This document shows positions 5,764 to 17,876 of a stretch of 22,323 nucleotides of DNA, in pieces. Position numbers and translations under genes: made by a program. The DNA lies in the IMG/VR virus record IMGVR_UViG_3300035157_000042, positions 1 through 22,323 of that record. One strand, 5' to 3'. The stretch is from a virus. Each line of letters opens with the position of its first letter. Position 1 is the first letter of the stretch. The notes beneath the pieces were generated by a model. That model had not been told where the DNA came from, made no database searches, and saw only the letters and a list, made by a program, of their open reading frames with translations.

Positions 5764-6770
5764 GTTTTTTACAGGATGTAGTAAAGGAGATAGGTAATGA
5801 ATATGCTTCTCTCGTTAGTGATGGTGTTGCTGCTGGTGACACAAATAATTTTATCGACACAGGTAGTCACATCTTTAACGCACTTGTCTCAGGAAGCATC
5901 TACGGAGGTATTCCAGGGAATAAGATCACAGCTATTGCAGGTGAGTCAAGCACAGGCAAAACTTTTTTCTGCCTTGGTGTGGTACAGCATTTTCTCGAAT
6001 CTAATCCTGATTCTGGGGTTATTTACTTTGAGTCTGAGAGTGCATTAAGTAAACAGCAGATTGAAGAGAGGGGTATTGATTCTTCTCGTATGATGATTGT
6101 ACCTGTTACTACGGTACAAGAATTTAGAACACAATCTATCAGAATATTAGACAAATATTTAGAACAACCTCCTTCATCGAGACAACCCTTAATGTTTGTT
6201 TTAGATTCTCTTGGTATGTTATCAACCAGTAAAGAGGTTGAGGACAGTGAAGCAGGTAAAGATACACGTGACATGACTAGAGCACAAGTTGTCAAGTCTA
6301 TCTTTAGAGTTCTAACTCTTAAATTAGGTAAAGCAAACGTCCCAATGTTGGTTACCAATCATACATATGATGTAGTAGGATCTTATATCCCCACAAAGGA
6401 GATGGGAGGTGGCAGTGGACTCAAATACGCAGCAAGCACAATCATATATCTATCTAAAAAGAAAGAGAAGGATGGTAAAGAGGTTGTGGGAAATATTATT
6501 AAATGCAAAACAGCTAAAGCTAGATTAACTAAGGAGAATAGTGCCGTTGATGTACGACTTTATTATGACACAGGACTTGACAAGTATTACGGACTATTGG
6601 AATTGGGTGAGAAGCATGGAGTATTTGAACGGAAGGGAAACCGCATTAGTATTGGTGGCTCTAATGTTTATCCTTCTGCAATTCTTGCCGACCCAGAAAA
6701 ATACTTCACCCCCGAACTAATGCAAGCATTAGACGAATGTGCATCCAAGGAGTTTCGCTATGGTAACTAA
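5760..6770 (+). CDS. uvsX: UvsX RecA-like recombinase
   Basis: A 336-aa RecA/UvsX-type recombinase. Walker A is GESSTGKT at 61-68, and Walker B is the hydrophobic strand LMFVLDS at 144-150. ESES at 91-94 occupies the usual catalytic-glutamate region at the end of the next strand. The region around [32 protein letters not shown] matches the RecA core strands that follow. It would coat ssDNA and catalyse strand exchange for recombination-dependent replication and repair, working with gp43 and gp41 encoded around it. The length is somewhat below T4 UvsX (about 390 aa), as is common in marine relatives. The end overlaps the ribosome site and start of the next oxygenase gene by 11 bases. Confidence 0.95.
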
Positions 6771-7329
6771 ATTAGAAGACTACATCAAGTGCTATGATAA
6801 TATGGTCAATGATACTCTATGTAATGATATCATTGAAGCATATAAACAATCAGGTACTAGCTATGTTAATAGAGAACAGAGACCTACGTTCCATGAACTG
6901 AATATATCTAAGAAGTATAAGGCAGAGGATCCTTTATGGATTAAACCTCAAAAGATAATAACAGAAACATTTATTGATGTTGTTAATCTTTACATGGAAG
7001 ATCTAGAAATTGCTAGAGATTTTCCTGTCAAGTATACTTTTGAGGAGTACCGTATGAAACGGTATGAGTGTAATGATCATGATCAATTTAAAGATCATGT
7101 TGATGTACAGGATTACAGTTCTGCACGTCGTTTTGTTGTTATATTTCTCTATTTGAATGATGTTTTAGAGGGTGGTGAGACAAATTTTCCTAGATTGGAC
7201 TTGGCAATTACACCAAAACAAGGTAGAATACTCGTGTTCCCTGCCAACTGGCAGTACAGACATGCAGGTCTCCCTGTAAGGTCAAACGACAAATACATTA
7301 TTGGATCTTATCTCCACTACCTAGAATGA
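6760..7329 (+). CDS. 2OG-Fe(II) oxygenase between uvsX and gp41
   Basis: A 189-aa protein from ATG 6760, chosen because AAGGAG lies 8 bases upstream; a GTG at 6739 would add seven residues inside uvsX. The dioxygenase core is clear: HxD at H113-D115 (KDHVDV), the GGET turn (LEGGETNFP), the strand [10 protein letters not shown], and the distal histidine H168 (RHAG). K178, rather than arginine, lies at the 2-oxoglutarate-binding position ([11 protein letters not shown]). Lysine at this position is typical of prolyl-4-hydroxylase-type enzymes. The substrate is not evident. It sits inside the replication operon (stop overlaps the gp41 start by ATGA), so it would be made together with the replisome. 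2OG oxygenases in this position are common in T4-like cyanophages, but their role is not known. Confidence 0.9.
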
Positions 7330-9087: not shown

Positions 9088-9176
9088 TGCATTTAGTTCT
9101 ACCTATCATTTGCATTGGACTTATTGTTTTAGTCATAGTGTATTCAGTTATTAATAGATATGATCCTCACACATGA
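9087..9176 (+). CDS. 29-aa single-membrane-segment micro-ORF
   Basis: ATG 9087 follows AGGAGATAGGTA, a strong ribosome site, and overlaps the mazG stop by one base. The 29-residue product is mostly one hydrophobic segment (LVLPIICIGLIVLVIVYSVI, residues 3-22) followed by a short polar tail (NRYDPHT). It ends at TGA 9174-9176, overlapping the next start by ATGA. It looks like a tiny membrane protein. The family is unknown. Couplings on both sides and the good ribosome site support translation. It is below the length that automated annotation usually keeps. Confidence 0.7.
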   Translation: MHLVLPIICIGLIVLVIVYSVINRYDPHT

Positions 9177-9862
9177 ATAACGCAGACAGATACCTACCAT
9201 TATTCGCATCTAATGTATTCCAACTTCATATAGATTATGATCTAGATGTATTGAAAACTAATAAGAGTTTTATCTATGCAGCTAATCAGAATAAGAAGTA
9301 TGAGTCTGAGAATTATAGAGCATTGGAAATGTTTCCAAATGTTAGAGATCATCTTATAAACAGATTTAAAGAACTTGCTCATAATTTTTTAAAGTTAGAG
9401 TCTGATTTTGTTATAACTACATCTTGGTTTACTATTACTGAAGAAGGTGATGGAGGTGATTCACATTATCATTTCCATAAGAATAGTTTTTATAGTGGTG
9501 TATTATATTACGATGAGTATAAAGAAGATAGTGCTCCTATAGAATTCATGACTCCTTTGGAGTTTCATTCTGATTTTTATATGGAACCAAGAGAATATGA
9601 TTTAGCTACTTCAACTTCTTGGAAAATATATCCTAAGAAAAATATGCTTGTACTATTTCCAAGTTACTTAAAGCATCAGGTAGGAAAACATATAGGAACT
9701 GACCCAAGATATTCTTTAGCATTTAATATTGTTCCTACAGGATCTTATGGTACATCAGATTCTTCTGTTCATACTGAATGGTTAACTGGAACATCAACAA
9801 CACATGAATTAGAGATGGGTTATAGAGTTCTTGGGGGTAAAAAATATATTGCTGATAATTGA
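9173..9862 (+). CDS. Putative 2OG-Fe(II) oxygenase, YhhC/TIGR02466-like
   Basis: A 229-aa protein with the pattern of the phage-associated putative 2OG-Fe(II) oxygenase family. The signature HYHFHKNSFYSGVLYY (about 98-113) compares with the family's H.H-P-x-S-x-x-SGVYY. The beta strand NMLVLFPSYLKHQV brings the distal histidine H168, and R179-Y-S-x-A-F-N (RYSLAFNIVP) is the 2OG-binding end. After the core there is a Ser/Thr/Gly-rich tail. The substrate is unknown. The start overlaps the 29-aa membrane gene by ATGA. The next oxygenase gene overlaps its last 32 bases, so these two enzymes are made from one message. The DNA here is AT-rich with strongly T/A-ending codons, unlike the replication genes. 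Confidence 0.75.
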   Translation: MNNADRYLPLFASNVFQLHIDYDLDVLKTNKSFIYAANQNKKYESENYRALEMFPNVRDHLINRFKELAHNFLKLESDFVITTSWFTITEEGDGGDSHYHFHKNSFYSGVLYYDEYKEDSAPIEFMTPLEFHSDFYMEPREYDLATSTSWKIYPKKNMLVLFPSYLKHQVGKHIGTDPRYSLAFNIVPTGSYGTSDSSVHTEWLTGTSTTHELEMGYRVLGGKKYIADN

Positions 9863-10361
9863 TGATTTTTTAAATCATAAAGACTTCGAGAAAGTCTTTA
9901 TGAAATATTCTGTTGGTGGTGATCAAAGTATATGGGGGATACAAAGAGGTGGAAATAATCATAGAGGATCAGAGTTTTTATTTTCTCATATAAAAGATGA
10001 TCCTTTCTTTACTGATTATTTGTTTTCCAAAGTTGTTGATAAATTAGATAAAGGTTCATATGAATTAGAAAGAGTATATTTTAATGGTCAATGGAGTGGA
10101 AGAGAATCAGATTTACATAAAGATGGGTGTGATATAACAGCACTACTTTATATGCATAACAGATATGAGTATGGATGGGGTGGATTTACTGAGATTATAA
10201 CTAAACCTAATCCAATTTTAATACATCCTATACCTAATAGATTATTAATATTTCCTGGTATGAATTCACATAAGGCATACTCTTTTGCATATCAAACATG
10301 TCCTTTAAGAGTTACTTTGGCTTTTAAAATACATAGTATTGATACTGTTAATAAATTATGA
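9831..10361 (+). CDS. Putative 2OG-Fe(II) oxygenase with non-ATG start
   Basis: A protein of up to 176 aa with the dioxygenase pattern: HxD at H96-D98 (ESDLHKDGCD), a central sheet (DITALLYMHN, then GWGGFTEII), the strand NRLLIFPGMNSHKA with distal H147, and R160 in LRVTLAFKIHS for 2-oxoglutarate. The start is uncertain. No ATG occurs in frame until codon 24, which would cut off the usual N-terminal strand (ILLIIDDFL). TTG at 9831 or 9849 is therefore likely; GGGGGT at 9833-9838 could serve the latter. The gene begins inside the end of the preceding oxygenase in another frame. The stop overlaps the next gene by ATGA. Very AT-rich, like its neighbour. The substrate is unknown. Confidence 0.75.
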   Translation: MGVKNILLIIDDFLNHKDFEKVFMKYSVGGDQSIWGIQRGGNNHRGSEFLFSHIKDDPFFTDYLFSKVVDKLDKGSYELERVYFNGQWSGRESDLHKDGCDITALLYMHNRYEYGWGGFTEIITKPNPILIHPIPNRLLIFPGMNSHKAYSFAYQTCPLRVTLAFKIHSIDTVNKL

Positions 10362-11984: not shown

Positions 11985-12929
11985 ATGCCAAACAAGCACC
12001 TTCGTCATCCAGAAGATTCAGTTTTACACGGAAGGAAGGTAGTTTGGGAGACACTAAAAGAATTGGTTAAGGCAACGAGGTTGTCTGTCAAATGGGATGG
12101 AGCACCTGCTATAGTATGGGGTACTAACCCTGCTAATGGACAGTTCTTTGTTGGTACTAAGTCAGTCTTTAATAAGAGAAGAGTATTAATAAACTATACT
12201 GTTGATGATATAACAACTAATCATAAAGGACCAGTGGCAGATATTCTTAAGTTGTGCTTGGAGTATCTTCCTAGAACTGATAAGATCTATCAGGGAGACT
12301 GGATAGGTGTTGGTATGTCAGGTAGATTGTACCAACCTAATACTATTGAGTATCTCTTTCCAGAGGAGATTCCGCAGAAGATAGTTGTTGCACCTCACAC
12401 AGAGTATACTGAGGTCACTCCTGAAGCGGAGGGGAAGATTGGTTTAACCTTAGAATCAACTGAGGATTGTTTCTTTGTTGATACTAACAATGCAACTATC
12501 AAGCCACCACTAGGATGGAGACACTTGATACAATTCATCATTCCTGTATGGAAGATGAAAGCACCTGTTAAGAAGAAGGGATATAATTATTATTTGATGG
12601 AGATTTCTAAGCACATAAACAGTTATGTTTCCGTGGGTTGGTGGGAAGATATGTCTGCTGAACAGATGTACTCTGAGTTAGATGATAAATATAAGAGTGA
12701 GGTTAATGTCTATACCTTTAAGGTGTGGTTTATGATCCTCGAATTGAAGCAGCGTCTACTAGATGCAATTGTGGTACATGGAAATGTTGAATGTTTTATC
12801 AATGGAGATCCCTCCAAGCATGAAGGGTTCGTGATTGTTTCTGAAAATCCATACAAGATTGTAGATCGTTGGGAATTTAGTAAAGCAAACTTTAATCTAG
12901 ATAGAAATTGGTCCTATGAAGAAGTTTAG
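11985..12929 (+). CDS. Ligase-like covalent nucleotidyltransferase (KxDG), putative
   Basis: A 314-aa protein showing the motif order of the DNA/RNA ligase and capping-enzyme superfamily. K36-W-D-G39 (LSVKWDGAPAIVWG) is motif I with the lysine that would take AMP. YQGDWIG (102-108) sits where motif III (GE/GD) is expected. HEGFVIVS (279-286) is motif IV (EGxV). YKIVDRWEFSKANF (290-303) gives motif V and a basic end. Length and spacing fit a compact RNA-ligase-like enzyme, with no OB domain seen. The family appears in cyanophages as an uncharacterised conserved protein (I believe DUF6267). The reaction, whether nucleic-acid joining, repair or protein AMPylation, is not known. Its last 14 bases overlap the next gene, itself a nucleotide-transfer enzyme, which suggests a shared job. 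Confidence 0.72.
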   Translation: MPNKHLRHPEDSVLHGRKVVWETLKELVKATRLSVKWDGAPAIVWGTNPANGQFFVGTKSVFNKRRVLINYTVDDITTNHKGPVADILKLCLEYLPRTDKIYQGDWIGVGMSGRLYQPNTIEYLFPEEIPQKIVVAPHTEYTEVTPEAEGKIGLTLESTEDCFFVDTNNATIKPPLGWRHLIQFIIPVWKMKAPVKKKGYNYYLMEISKHINSYVSVGWWEDMSAEQMYSELDDKYKSEVNVYTFKVWFMILELKQRLLDAIVVHGNVECFINGDPSKHEGFVIVSENPYKIVDRWEFSKANFNLDRNWSYEEV

Positions 12930-14055
12930 TGCATTCTTGAAGGAGGCTAAAAAGTCTCTTGCTGCACAGGAAGCTGAAAAGTTGCAACTTACCCATGTAG
13001 GTTACGGTAAATTTGCCGATGTTAGAGGCAACGTAACTCATATGAGTAAGGCAGGTAAACTTATTAAACTTAGTCCTCAAGAGATAGCAAATCAAAATGG
13101 AACTGCACCCCCAGAAGAAGAAGGAGGCCAGACTCAGAGCGATCAAGGTGCGATATCTATTACTTTCGGAAGATTTAATCCACCTACTATTGGGCATGAA
13201 GCTTTAATTAAAAAGGTAGCACAATCAGGAAAGGGTGGTGAGTATAGAATCTATCCTAGTAGGACAGAAGATCCTAAGAAGAACCCATTGGATGTTGGTT
13301 CTAAGATAGGTTTTATGAAGCAAGCATATCCAGATCATGCTGATGCTATACAGAATAATGAAGAGATGAGAACTATATTTGATGTGCTTAAAACTGTTGG
13401 AGATGAGGGATATAGTGAGGTTAATATAGTAGTTGGTGGTGATAGAGTTAGTGAGTTTACTTCATTGGCAACAAAGTATAATGGTAACCTTTATAATTTT
13501 GATCAGATCAATGTAGTATCTGCTGGTGATCGTGATCCAGATGCGGATGGTGTAGAAGGTATGTCTGCATCTAAGTTGCGTAAAGCTGCTGCTGATAATG
13601 ATGGTGCAACCTTTGTTAAGGGACTTACTAAAGCAATGAGTCCTGAGAATCAGGAGAAGTTATTTAAGGCAGTGCAGAAGGGTATGCAAGTACAAGTTCA
13701 AGAGGATTTTAGTGAACTTTCTTATCAATTATATGAGATTGCACCTAAATTAGATGAGAAGGGTTTGAGAGAGGCATACTTCGATGGCGAAATATTTAAA
13801 GAAGGATCAATTGTCGAGAACATCAACACAGGGATCCTTTCTAAGATTGTTAGTCGTGGTAGCAATTACGTCATCTCTATTGATGAGCATGATAATATTT
13901 TTCGTGGGTGGTTAAAGGATATTATAGAAGTTAAGGATTATAGTGACCCATCTAGTCGTGAGTGGGGTACTGATAGTCTTACTAATTACGTTAAGAAACT
14001 TACTCCAGGAGAGTTTGTAAAGAAGATAAATAAAAAGGACAAGACCTCTCAATAA
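12916..14055 (+). CDS. HIGH-type nucleotidyltransferase with capsid-targeting-like N-terminus
   Basis: A 379-aa, multi-domain protein. Residues 1-14 (MKKFSAFLKEAKKS) resemble the capsid-targeting sequence of T4 internal head proteins (MKTYQEFIAEA), with a gp21-type cleavage site L-K-E|A after residue 10. A small domain follows (about 22-53: LTHVGYGKFADVRGNVTH). The enzyme core (78-230) has GRFNPPTIGH at 85-94, the HxGH-type motif of NMN adenylyltransferases and cytidylyltransferases, VGGDR at 173-177, and GMSASKLR at 215-222, matching their SxTxxR motif. A C-terminal SH3/KOW-like barrel (about 290-340) contains GSIVENINTG and ending FRGWLKDIIEV. It would transfer a nucleotide to a phosphate acceptor such as NMN; the true substrate is unknown. 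It may be packaged in the head. The GATAAATA box near its end probably serves the next gene. Confidence 0.8.
   Translation: MKKFSAFLKEAKKSLAAQEAEKLQLTHVGYGKFADVRGNVTHMSKAGKLIKLSPQEIANQNGTAPPEEEGGQTQSDQGAISITFGRFNPPTIGHEALIKKVAQSGKGGEYRIYPSRTEDPKKNPLDVGSKIGFMKQAYPDHADAIQNNEEMRTIFDVLKTVGDEGYSEVNIVVGGDRVSEFTSLATKYNGNLYNFDQINVVSAGDRDPDADGVEGMSASKLRKAAADNDGATFVKGLTKAMSPENQEKLFKAVQKGMQVQVQEDFSELSYQLYEIAPKLDEKGLREAYFDGEIFKEGSIVENINTGILSKIVSRGSNYVISIDEHDNIFRGWLKDIIEVKDYSDPSSREWGTDSLTNYVKKLTPGEFVKKINKKDKTSQ
14025..14032 (+). promoter_or_regulatory. Possible late promoter box before the charged protein
   Basis: GATAAATA matches NATAAATA and lies 24 bases upstream of the ATG at 14057, the same distance as between the box at 10556-10563 and its ATG. 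It lies inside the 3' end of the preceding coding region (Ile-Asn-Lys codons), so a chance match in AT-rich DNA is possible. The equal spacing raises its likelihood. Confidence 0.45.
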
Positions 14056-14056
14056 C

Positions 14057-14548
14057 ATGTTACACACCAATAGAAATCCACTTCCTGATATGACTGATGC
14101 ACTTAAGAAAGTGTATGAGGATGAGAAGTATGGGTATGATAAAGATGGGAACTCTAAGAACCCTAAAGATAAGAAAAAAGCACGTTGGCAAGACGACGAT
14201 GGTGATGGTAAGTGGTACGAGAAAAGTGATGTAGATGGTAAGGTCTCCAAGAGAGAGAAGGAAGAGAAGAAGAAAAATCAAAAGGAAGAAGTGGAGATTG
14301 TTAACGAAATCTCTCCTGACCTAGCACTTAAGGCTTCTAAGGAAGCAGATAAGAAGCGTGGGAAACTCGCTGTTGCTGGTGACAAGGAAGGTGCTGCTAA
14401 GAAGTCTGCTCAAGCTTCAAGACTATACAAAGCACAAGCTAAGAAGAGACTTAACAGAGAAGAGACTGAGATCATTGATGATCTAGTAGAGTCTGGTCTG
14501 TTTAGTGATGAAGAAATTAAAGCTATTCTAGATTTAGAGGAGGAGTGA
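14057..14548 (+). CDS. Charged structural-type protein with Ca-loop-like motif
   Basis: A 163-aa, highly charged protein. RWQDDDGDGKWYE (43-55) resembles a calcium-binding loop of the DxDxDGxxxE (excalibur/EF-hand-like) type. A lysine-rich linker follows. Then comes an Ala/Lys helical segment starting EISPDLALKASKEADKKRG, and an acidic C-terminal helix ending AILDLEEE. No enzyme domain is seen. It lies between a nucleotidyltransferase with a capsid-targeting-like start and a histone-like protein, so it may be an internal or core head protein. The late promoter box at 14025 may drive it. The stop overlaps the next start by one base (TGATG). Its own ribosome site is weak. Confidence 0.65.
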   Translation: MLHTNRNPLPDMTDALKKVYEDEKYGYDKDGNSKNPKDKKKARWQDDDGDGKWYEKSDVDGKVSKREKEEKKKNQKEEVEIVNEISPDLALKASKEADKKRGKLAVAGDKEGAAKKSAQASRLYKAQAKKRLNREETEIIDDLVESGLFSDEEIKAILDLEEE

Positions 14549-15669
14549 TGCTTACCTTTAGAGAACTTTCTGAAAAGAAATCTAAAATTAAAATCAACCC
14601 AAAGCAAGCAGACCTTACAGAGAAAGATAAAAAAACTAAAGAAGTTGCCTGTGAGTCTGTTGATCTAACTGAAGAGTGGATCAATGCTAGTATAGAAGTA
14701 TCTGCTGATTACTTCTTTGCAGAGGGTATCAATGAGGATGGTTTAGATCAGATCATTGATGAAGTTGGACTAGAAGATTTTGTCGAGTTTGTTATTGATC
14801 CTATTGAGGAATTGAATGAGGAGAGATCAGCAAGAAAGGCATCAGTTAAAGCACCTTCATATGAGAAGGTGAAAGCTGCTGTTGATAAGTCTGATGCTGC
14901 TAAGAAGAAAGCAGGTAAAGGTGAGTACTCTAAGTCATATGCCAAGAGGTCTGGTGAGACTGAAGATAGTACTGATTATAAAGAGAAAGCACCTGCTAAG
15001 AAGAAAGCAAAACCAGTTGCTAAGGCTACTGTAAGGAAACCTAAAGCAGCACCTAAGAAGAAGGCAGCGACAGTTAAGAAGGTAGAGAAAGCAGTTAAGA
15101 CTGCTAAGAAAGAGCAACCAAAGAAACCAACTTCCAAGAAAGGATTGTTAGGTAAGGTAGGTGATGCTGTTAAGAAGGGTGTTGAGAGACACAACAAGGC
15201 AAGAGCAGCAGGTAAAGTACCAGAGAAACGTGTGAAGGAATTCGCAAAAGGATTTAAGAAAGGTGTTACTGGCACTCTTAAATTTGCTGGTAAGGTTAAG
15301 AAGGCTGTCAGTGAAGAGGTAGTAGATGAAGCAACTCGTCTTAAGAAAGAGAAGGGTTATGACAAGGGTGGTACTAAGAAACCATCTGCTACAAAGGATA
15401 AAGCATTATCATTCGTTCTTGATAAAATCAGGAAGGAACATGGTAAGGGTGCTGTTATGGGACAAGGTGGTAGCAGACAGCAAAAGAAAGAGAAAGGTGC
15501 TAAGTCATCATCAGGTACTGGTAAGTATTTGAAGAGAGCACAAGATAAGAAAGCCTATGTTGCTAAGGCAAAGAAGGCTGGATTTAAATCTGCACAAGAC
15601 TATACCAATACAATGGCGAGGTATGGTGGAGAAGATAATTATAAGAAAGGTAAAGGTCTGGGAACATGA
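14548..15669 (+). CDS. Lysine/alanine-rich histone-H1-like protein, probable internal virion protein
   Basis: A 373-aa protein from ATG 14548 (ribosome site GAGGAGG just upstream; a GTG at 14545 is less likely). The N-terminus MLTFRELSEKKSK again resembles a T4 capsid-targeting sequence with an L-S-E cleavage site. An acidic segment (about 28-95) is followed by a long basic region (about 105-225) made of AKKK/PKKKAA/VKKVEKAVK-type blocks. These resemble the tail of histone H1 and phage DNA-condensing proteins. The C-terminal part (about 262-373) is conserved-looking, with DYTNTMARYGG and ending KGKGLGT. Such composition suggests DNA binding inside the capsid or early after injection. There is no enzyme motif. 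Repeated AAGAAAG runs make the DNA locally repetitive. Confidence 0.75.
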   Translation: MLTFRELSEKKSKIKINPKQADLTEKDKKTKEVACESVDLTEEWINASIEVSADYFFAEGINEDGLDQIIDEVGLEDFVEFVIDPIEELNEERSARKASVKAPSYEKVKAAVDKSDAAKKKAGKGEYSKSYAKRSGETEDSTDYKEKAPAKKKAKPVAKATVRKPKAAPKKKAATVKKVEKAVKTAKKEQPKKPTSKKGLLGKVGDAVKKGVERHNKARAAGKVPEKRVKEFAKGFKKGVTGTLKFAGKVKKAVSEEVVDEATRLKKEKGYDKGGTKKPSATKDKALSFVLDKIRKEHGKGAVMGQGGSRQQKKEKGAKSSSGTGKYLKRAQDKKAYVAKAKKAGFKSAQDYTNTMARYGGEDNYKKGKGLGT

Positions 15670-16938: not shown

Positions 16939-17301
16939 ATGAAATTTGACGAACTGAATGAAGACACTTACATTCTGTTCGCCATTAAGCATTATGAAAA
17001 TCCTCACTGTGTTACACGTGAGGATTTTGATGAAGACCTTAAAAGATTTAAGTACCTCAAACGTTTACTTAAACGTTACGTTAGAGGTGGTCAATTAAGG
17101 ATACATTTGATTATAAATCATCTAATTATTCTTTATAATGTTTTTGGTGAAGCAGCAACACCATTACTCTTTTACAAATTAGAAAGAGAGTACTGGTGTA
17201 TTTTAAAAACTATACTTCTTTATCTTAATAAATATCCTATAGGGATGCTTCCTGAGTTAGAAATTGATCCTGATATTCAAAAAGAATTAAATCAGATATG
17301 A
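16939..17301 (+). CDS. Conserved phage hypothetical protein, helical
   Basis: A 120-aa mostly helical protein: MKFDELNEDTYILFAIKHYENPHC, then a basic stretch (KRFKYLKRLLKRYVRGG), then hydrophobic helices (LIINHLIILYNVFGEAATPLLFYKL) and an acidic end. The pattern MKFDEL..ENYILFAIK..NP is a recurrent start of a conserved protein in marine phages whose function is unknown to me. It follows the Ig-like gene by six bases and overlaps the next gene by four (ATGA), so it is probably read from the same late promoter. Confidence 0.75.
   Translation: MKFDELNEDTYILFAIKHYENPHCVTREDFDEDLKRFKYLKRLLKRYVRGGQLRIHLIINHLIILYNVFGEAATPLLFYKLEREYWCILKTILLYLNKYPIGMLPELEIDPDIQKELNQI
17227..17234 (+). promoter_or_regulatory. 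Weak late promoter candidate inside a coding region
   Basis: AATAAATA matches NATAAATA, 64 bases before the ATG at 17298. It lies within coding DNA (Leu-Asn-Lys-Tyr codons), so chance is a real alternative. It could give extra late transcription of the downstream genes. Confidence 0.25.
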
Positions 17302-17876
17302 ATGAAGACGCACCAACAATGAGTACTGCCACTGCAGGTGGAGCAGGTTTCAGTCATAAGGCTGCAGCTACTGGTCCTAATGCTGGTATAGATCCTATCA
17401 TGAACTTCAAGAAGAAGGTGCAGAAGCGTAAGAAGATGAAGGAAGATAATGAGATTGACAGACCTATTACTGTTGATCGACAAGTTCCTGGTGGTAGATC
17501 TAGATTGTTTCAGTATAGGGTAAAGATTCCTAAAGGTGATATAGATACTATCATATATGCAAACAATCCTGCTGAACTCAGACAGAAACTACGTTTGCTT
17601 GTTAATTACAGATATCGTGGGGATATTTCTATCGAAAGAATTATGCCTGGAGAAGCTGGTAAGTTCTTTATGAATAAAAGGAGTAAGCATATGAAAAATG
17701 TTAACGAGTCTGACGATCAAAAGCAGCAGCAAGCAATAGTACAACAGAAGACTGCTCTTGAAAAGAAAAAGGTAATGATTAAGAAGATGGCTTTACAAAA
17801 GCAACTTCAATCTAAAGTTCAAGACATGAAAAAGAAAGCTAGAGTTGGTGGTGTGAAGGGAGAAGCAGACAGTTAG
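17298..17876 (+). CDS. Conserved-type basic hypothetical protein
   Basis: A 192-aa protein. It begins with a disordered Ser/Ala/Gly-rich start (MNEDAPTMSTATAGGAGFSH). A basic stretch (KKKVQKRKKMKE) follows, then a compact alpha/beta part (about 60-120: RLFQYRVKIPKGDIDTIIYA ... YRYRGDISIERIMPGEAGKFF), and a Gln/Lys-rich helical tail probably forming a coiled coil (about 132-182). No enzyme motif. The start overlaps the previous stop (ATGA). An AATAAATA match lies upstream within the preceding gene. The role is unknown; a virion-assembly protein is possible from context. Confidence 0.7.
   Translation: MNEDAPTMSTATAGGAGFSHKAAATGPNAGIDPIMNFKKKVQKRKKMKEDNEIDRPITVDRQVPGGRSRLFQYRVKIPKGDIDTIIYANNPAELRQKLRLLVNYRYRGDISIERIMPGEAGKFFMNKRSKHMKNVNESDDQKQQQAIVQQKTALEKKKVMIKKMALQKQLQSKVQDMKKKARVGGVKGEADS

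Follow-up and report, generated by a model that had tools for sequence, protein, structure and literature searches.

The window, a 22,323-bp IMG/VR fragment of T4-like cyanophage DNA, encodes a nucleotidyltransferase (NTase) that very probably belongs to the internal head proteins of a T4-like cyanophage (Kyanoviridae) and whose N-terminal tag would act as a capsid-targeting sequence of the T4 type. The presence of this enzyme family in virions is already known; the link to a T4-type tag is the new part, and in the open-access literature we found no report tying cyanophage virion enzymes to such a sequence. Comparison with P-SSM7 showed the same order of the genes for DNA polymerase, UvsX, gp41, gp61 and ribonucleotide reductase. 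The features discussed here are collected in Table 1. By eye, one protein in the window looks like a flavin-dependent halogenase and several others look like 2OG-Fe(II) oxygenases (793-2301, 182-796, 6739-7329, 9173-10361).

Table 1. Position of the features within the window
Feature	Position	Strand	Remarks
DUF6267 protein	11985..12929	+	PF19782, E 2.8e-88; untagged neighbour of the NTase, probable partner
NTase	12916..14055	+	HIGH superfamily, cytidylyltransferase/NMNAT-like, T4-GC190; candidate internal head protein
Putative T4-type capsid-targeting tag of the NTase	12916..12948	+	MKKFSAFLKE/A; predicted gp21 cut after Glu10, between 12945 and 12946
NTase linker, tag to catalytic domain	12949..13164	+	28% mean pairwise identity among relatives
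NTase catalytic core	13165..13660 (end approximate)	+	FGRFNPPTxGH and SASKLR; invariant columns in 25 aligned relatives
163-aa charged protein	14057..14548	+	separates the NTase gene from the Lys-rich gene; resembles S-SM1 gene 191, T4-GC1454
Lys-rich basic protein	14548..15669	+	possible second internal head protein
N-terminal module of the Lys-rich protein, 26 aa	14548..14625	+	MLTFRELSE/KKSKIKINPKQADLTE/K, two LxE sites
Conserved C-terminal domain of the Lys-rich protein	15313..15666	+	
Small basic protein	17298..17876	+	phrog_696; similar to gp23 directly behind the gp21 site

The N-terminal tag and its conservation

The open reading frame of the NTase was confirmed and begins with MKKFSAFLKEA. 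The protein matches PF01467 (E 2.8e-4) and phrog_395 (1e-115), and its CTP_transf_like domain carries (T/H)xGH and SxSxxR-type signatures, which places the enzyme among the HIGH-superfamily nucleotidyltransferases. The profile match to MJ0541 of M. jannaschii is weak (E 0.24), and NMNAT is the usual guess for the predicted activity.

In IPIII of T4 residues 4 and 7 are needed for targeting and residues 8 and 10 for processing (PMC9026906). The NTase of the window agrees with IPII and IPIII at all four functional positions (aromatic residues at 4 and 7, a hydrophobic residue at 8, Glu at 10), which bears out the original prediction that this protein starts like the T4 internal proteins, including an L-x-E site; residues 3, 5, 6 and 9 differ. 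Scanning the T4 genome in the same way gave MKTYQEFIAEA on two adjacent genes, which, going by published descriptions, we take to be IPII and IPIII. As a positive control the strict motif retrieved both of these proteins and gp61.1. The latter (NC_000866 18966-19130, 54 aa) has the capsid-targeting-like N-terminus MKTFKEFIKED.

All 80 close relatives retrieved by a whole-protein search begin with MK[KSN]FSxF[LF]xEA. In order to avoid circularity IMG/VR was also searched with a catalytic-domain alignment that lacked the tag, and this tag-blind search yielded 80 loci, 77 of them with an intact 5′ end. The strict tag is present at the first ATG in 71 of these 77 relatives, and a further four carry a tag that is one residue shorter (MNFVDFIKEA, MKFKQFLSEA), so that the conservation expected for the NTase motif is indeed found. 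The conserved positions are K2, F4, F7, L/I8, E10 and A11, the invariance of F7 and E10 in the 71 sequences being partly by construction because the regex defined these sequences. Among 60 dereplicated sequences the mean pairwise identity is 64% for tag residues 2-11 and 58% for the catalytic domain but 28% for the linker between them. The Phe and Glu codons of the tag differ synonymously among relatives, and we therefore conclude that selection acts on its protein sequence. In the T4-like phage HTVC008M the tag was not seen on the NTase, which starts with MKTLKELLRKK.

The prohead protease (PF03420, gp21-type, S77) was found in nine out of ten test phages and in 9 of the 11 large contigs picked for the tag, and was not found in the T7-like P-SSP7. 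The window, being a genome fragment of 22 kb, does not itself encode gp21. The aligned cyanophage gp23 proteins retain LxE at the position of the T4 cut FLTE/A. In S-CBWM1, whose virions reportedly contain NMNAT, neither a match to this NTase family nor an S77 protease could be detected, and this phage serves as a control only.

One could argue that the tag is nothing but a gp21 cleavage site and that another part of the protein does the targeting, so that the tag marks head proteins and addresses none. LxE sites do occur in gp22, gp21 and gp23 too, none of which is addressed by such a tag. Against this, F4 and F7, which in T4 function in targeting and not in processing, are among the most conserved positions, and two of the 77 tag-blind relatives (MKKFSEFLGS) have kept F4, F7 and L8 and lost E10. 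We regard the cleavage-only explanation as improbable.

Tagged proteins in virions and the proposed route of the enzyme

Relatives of the NTase have been detected in purified virions of three T4-like cyanophages. T4-GC190 is present in S-SM1 virions (PMC3037559), and the S-SM1 gene begins with MKKFSAFLNEA. In S-SCSM1 virions ORF91, named NMNAT, was found (PMC9602691); the NTase gene of this phage at 88819-90048, which we take as ORF91, carries the tag MKSFLQFLKEA. For S-CREM2 52 of the 219 CDS were detected in virions (PMC10665884). Our first tag regex for this genome had been fixed before the virion outcome was seen; it selected six CDS, five of which are virion proteins (p=0.003). When F7 was required, all five remaining tagged proteins are in virions (p=0.0006), namely gp6 (S-AdoMet lyase), gp13, gp14 (kinase-like), gp136 and gp154 (NTase). 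With a looser regex 36 hits were obtained in S-CREM2 and the significance was gone (p=0.1). According to the S-CREM2 paper, the homologue of the kinase in S-CRM01 is found in virions as well (PMC10665884), and the S-CRM01 gene is tagged with MISFDQFLSEK. With these tagged relatives in the virions of S-SM1, S-SCSM1 and S-CREM2 and with gp21 in relatives the claim that the NTase is a packaged protein is supported. A further S-CREM2 virion protein, annotated as Cas9 (OR473000 7704-10313), has RFASFMAE/A at residues 18-25 and gave no Pfam match.

It is conceivable that the NTase is not packaged at all and is an abundant late enzyme sticking to virions, its N-terminus serving folding, oligomerisation or membrane binding. 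Contamination of the CsCl preparations by abundant enzymes is left possible by the proteome authors (PMC10665884, PMC9602691), and the identification of the S-CREM2 NTase rests on three peptides (PMC10665884). This explanation has, however, to account for the detection in three independent T4-like virion proteomes, for the same tag on the SAM lyase and the kinase-like protein found in virions and for the poor conservation of the linker directly behind the tag. The exchange of the tag with a neighbouring protein and its occurrence on unrelated proteins, both described below, argue against it too, and of the two alternatives for the NTase we consider it the more remote.

For the NTase as a targeted internal head protein we propose the following route. 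Docking to the prohead core would be through F4 and F7, and a gp21-type protease would cut after L8-x-E10. The enzyme would remain beside the DNA inside the head, enter the cell at infection and act enzymatically early in infection. The nearly T4-like ten-residue tag together with the enzyme in the published virion analyses of relatives makes it probable that the NTase is injected into the host along with the virus DNA. Speculatively, its action early in infection could restore NAD, for instance to counter defences that deplete it. If cut after E10, the S-CREM2 proteins are predicted to start with ADEKQQQAPK (gp154), EETEAHK (gp14), FDRDQESLEESSLSR (gp6) and DAGDK (gp136).

Several known systems are similar in part. 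With IPII and IPIII of T4 the NTase shares the ten-residue tag, a gp21-type protease (in relatives) and the presence of the cargo in virions (of relatives); these T4 proteins are, however, small and basic whereas the NTase is a conserved enzyme whose cleavage and injection are predicted only. The ADP-ribosyltransferase Alt of T4 is likewise an enzyme that travels in the head and enters the host by ejection, but it is cut at ITE-6 and at the C-terminus and does not have the MKxFxxFLxE tag. Propeptides of head proteins, among them ejection proteins, of SPN3US and phiKZ are removed by a gp21-like protease, as proposed for the NTase, with cleavage at A/S/G-x-E in contrast to L/I-x-E here. The virion NMNAT/cytidylyltransferases of S-SM1, S-SCSM1 and S-CREM2 are of the same family as the NTase of the window and were published without a targeting mechanism, the tag being the new element. 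Whether cyanophage virion enzymes are cargo or contamination has so far been left open, and a readable tag gives a testable rule, predicting from sequence which proteins of abundant ocean viruses, many of them functionally uncharacterised, travel with the DNA.

Spread of the tag and its exchange with DUF6267

In ten gp21-bearing phages the strict motif is present at 22 of 5,454 start candidates and at 3 of 7,384 internal Met residues (p=3e-6). The corresponding numbers for three phages in which no S77 protease was detected are 2/851 and 0/1,275; in S-TIM5 two genes fit the tag regex although no S77 protease was found there. We further scanned IMG/VR at the DNA level with the degenerate pattern ATGAARNNNTTYNNNNNNTTYYTNNNNGARGC, which matched at least 120 stretches, 80 loci being listed. 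Of these listed matches 79 open a reading frame, and 72 of the frames are at least 45 aa long. The tagged proteins among the listed matches fall into about 18 clusters that resemble one another in the tag only. The NTases are in the largest cluster, of 52 members, and NTase, DUF6267, DUF5661 and DUF192 are among the annotations of the tagged proteins. A permuted control pattern had 23 matches in the whole IMG/VR collection, mostly in very short frames with few open reading frames of at least 45 aa.

Within the same phages, 118 of 119 DUF6267 proteins encoded next to the NTase have no tag. In the sole exception (locus L193) the DUF6267 protein is tagged and the NTase directly downstream is untagged. 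In S-PM2 the DUF6267 and NTase sequences form a single unit that spans a frame change and has no tag; this unit (NC_006820 ~103000-104800) could be a fusion with a frameshift or reflect a sequencing error. An earlier proteome of S-PM2 virions did not detect the NTase and also missed several known structural proteins (PMC3037559). The tag exchange in L193 together with the continuity in S-PM2 suggests a complex with one member requiring the tag. DUF6267 is probably the partner of the NTase and may reach the head by piggyback on the member that bears the tag.

The KxDG, QxD and EGxV residues of DUF6267 are invariant and recall those of ligase/capping nucleotidyltransferases. As a candidate nucleic-acid ligase the protein was rejected, since comparison with T4/KVP40 ligase profiles was no better than controls and no solved structure matched.

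It is an even bet that T4-like cyanophages, along with their relatives from the environment, load an arsenal of injected proteins by means of one transferable N-terminal address code and that a single tag packages the NTase-DUF6267 pair by piggyback. Such an arsenal would comprise NTases, kinase-like proteins, SAM lyase, acetyltransferase, DUF6267 and many proteins of unknown function.

The lysine-rich protein

The original prediction had named the Lys-rich protein as a second candidate internal head protein with a T4-like N-terminus. Its ATG at 14548 lies behind GGAGGAG and the N-terminus reads MLTFRELSEKK. The protein has 22% Lys, a pI of 9.8 and a net charge of about +40, and judged from composition the latter two values would fit DNA binding. 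In 44 distinct N-termini, a set selected by the N-terminal motif itself (relatives of 162-878 aa), the module ML[ST]F[KR]xLxEKK..KINP....LxEK is the most conserved stretch, followed by a hypervariable Lys-rich middle part and a conserved C-terminus. Compared with T4, F4, L7 and LxE are present, with Leu at position 2 and a spacing that is one residue short. This motif class (class-2) is not enriched at starts (5/4,961 compared with 4/6,718), and the Leu2, the Glu at 9 and the missing enrichment make the likeness to the T4 tag weak on its own. The N-terminus itself is present as predicted and is conserved, with LxE sites that are mostly off the T4 spacing by one residue.

The Lys-rich protein could instead not be an internal head protein, with the N-terminus as a domain of its own and a function in the cell, e.g., as a nucleic-acid-binding factor. 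That conservation extends to residue 26, beyond the first supposed cut, and that Glu is at 9 instead of 10 in 42 of the 44 N-termini agree with a cellular protein, in addition to the missing start enrichment. On the other hand, rare relatives show the T4 spacing (MLSFKAYLTEKK), two longer proteins carry the module internally with this spacing (FGEYLAEKK, FADYLVEKK), and the relative in S-E7 is annotated as 'T4-like phage structural protein'. Moreover the gene is the second after the NTase, and at that place in S-CREM2 the products of the two genes right behind that of the NTase gp154, namely gp155 and gp156, are virion proteins as well (PMC10665884); gp155 and gp156 show no clear homology to the two genes following the NTase in the window. 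A function in the cell has in our judgement a little less than an even chance. For the Lys-rich protein as a second internal cargo the chances are about even; it is plausible, with the S-E7 annotation and the LxE sites in its favour, and less certain than the NTase, so that from the predicted pair of internal head proteins the NTase is supported and the Lys-rich protein stays unproven.

The two longer proteins (L072:10786-13377, L074:11380-13905) start with MKSFKNF and have an LxE site before the internal Lys-rich module; from their sequences they are possible polyproteins cut by gp21. The small basic protein further downstream in the window has a pI of 10.2 and gp23-like first residues, and virions of S-CREM2 contain its relative gp160.
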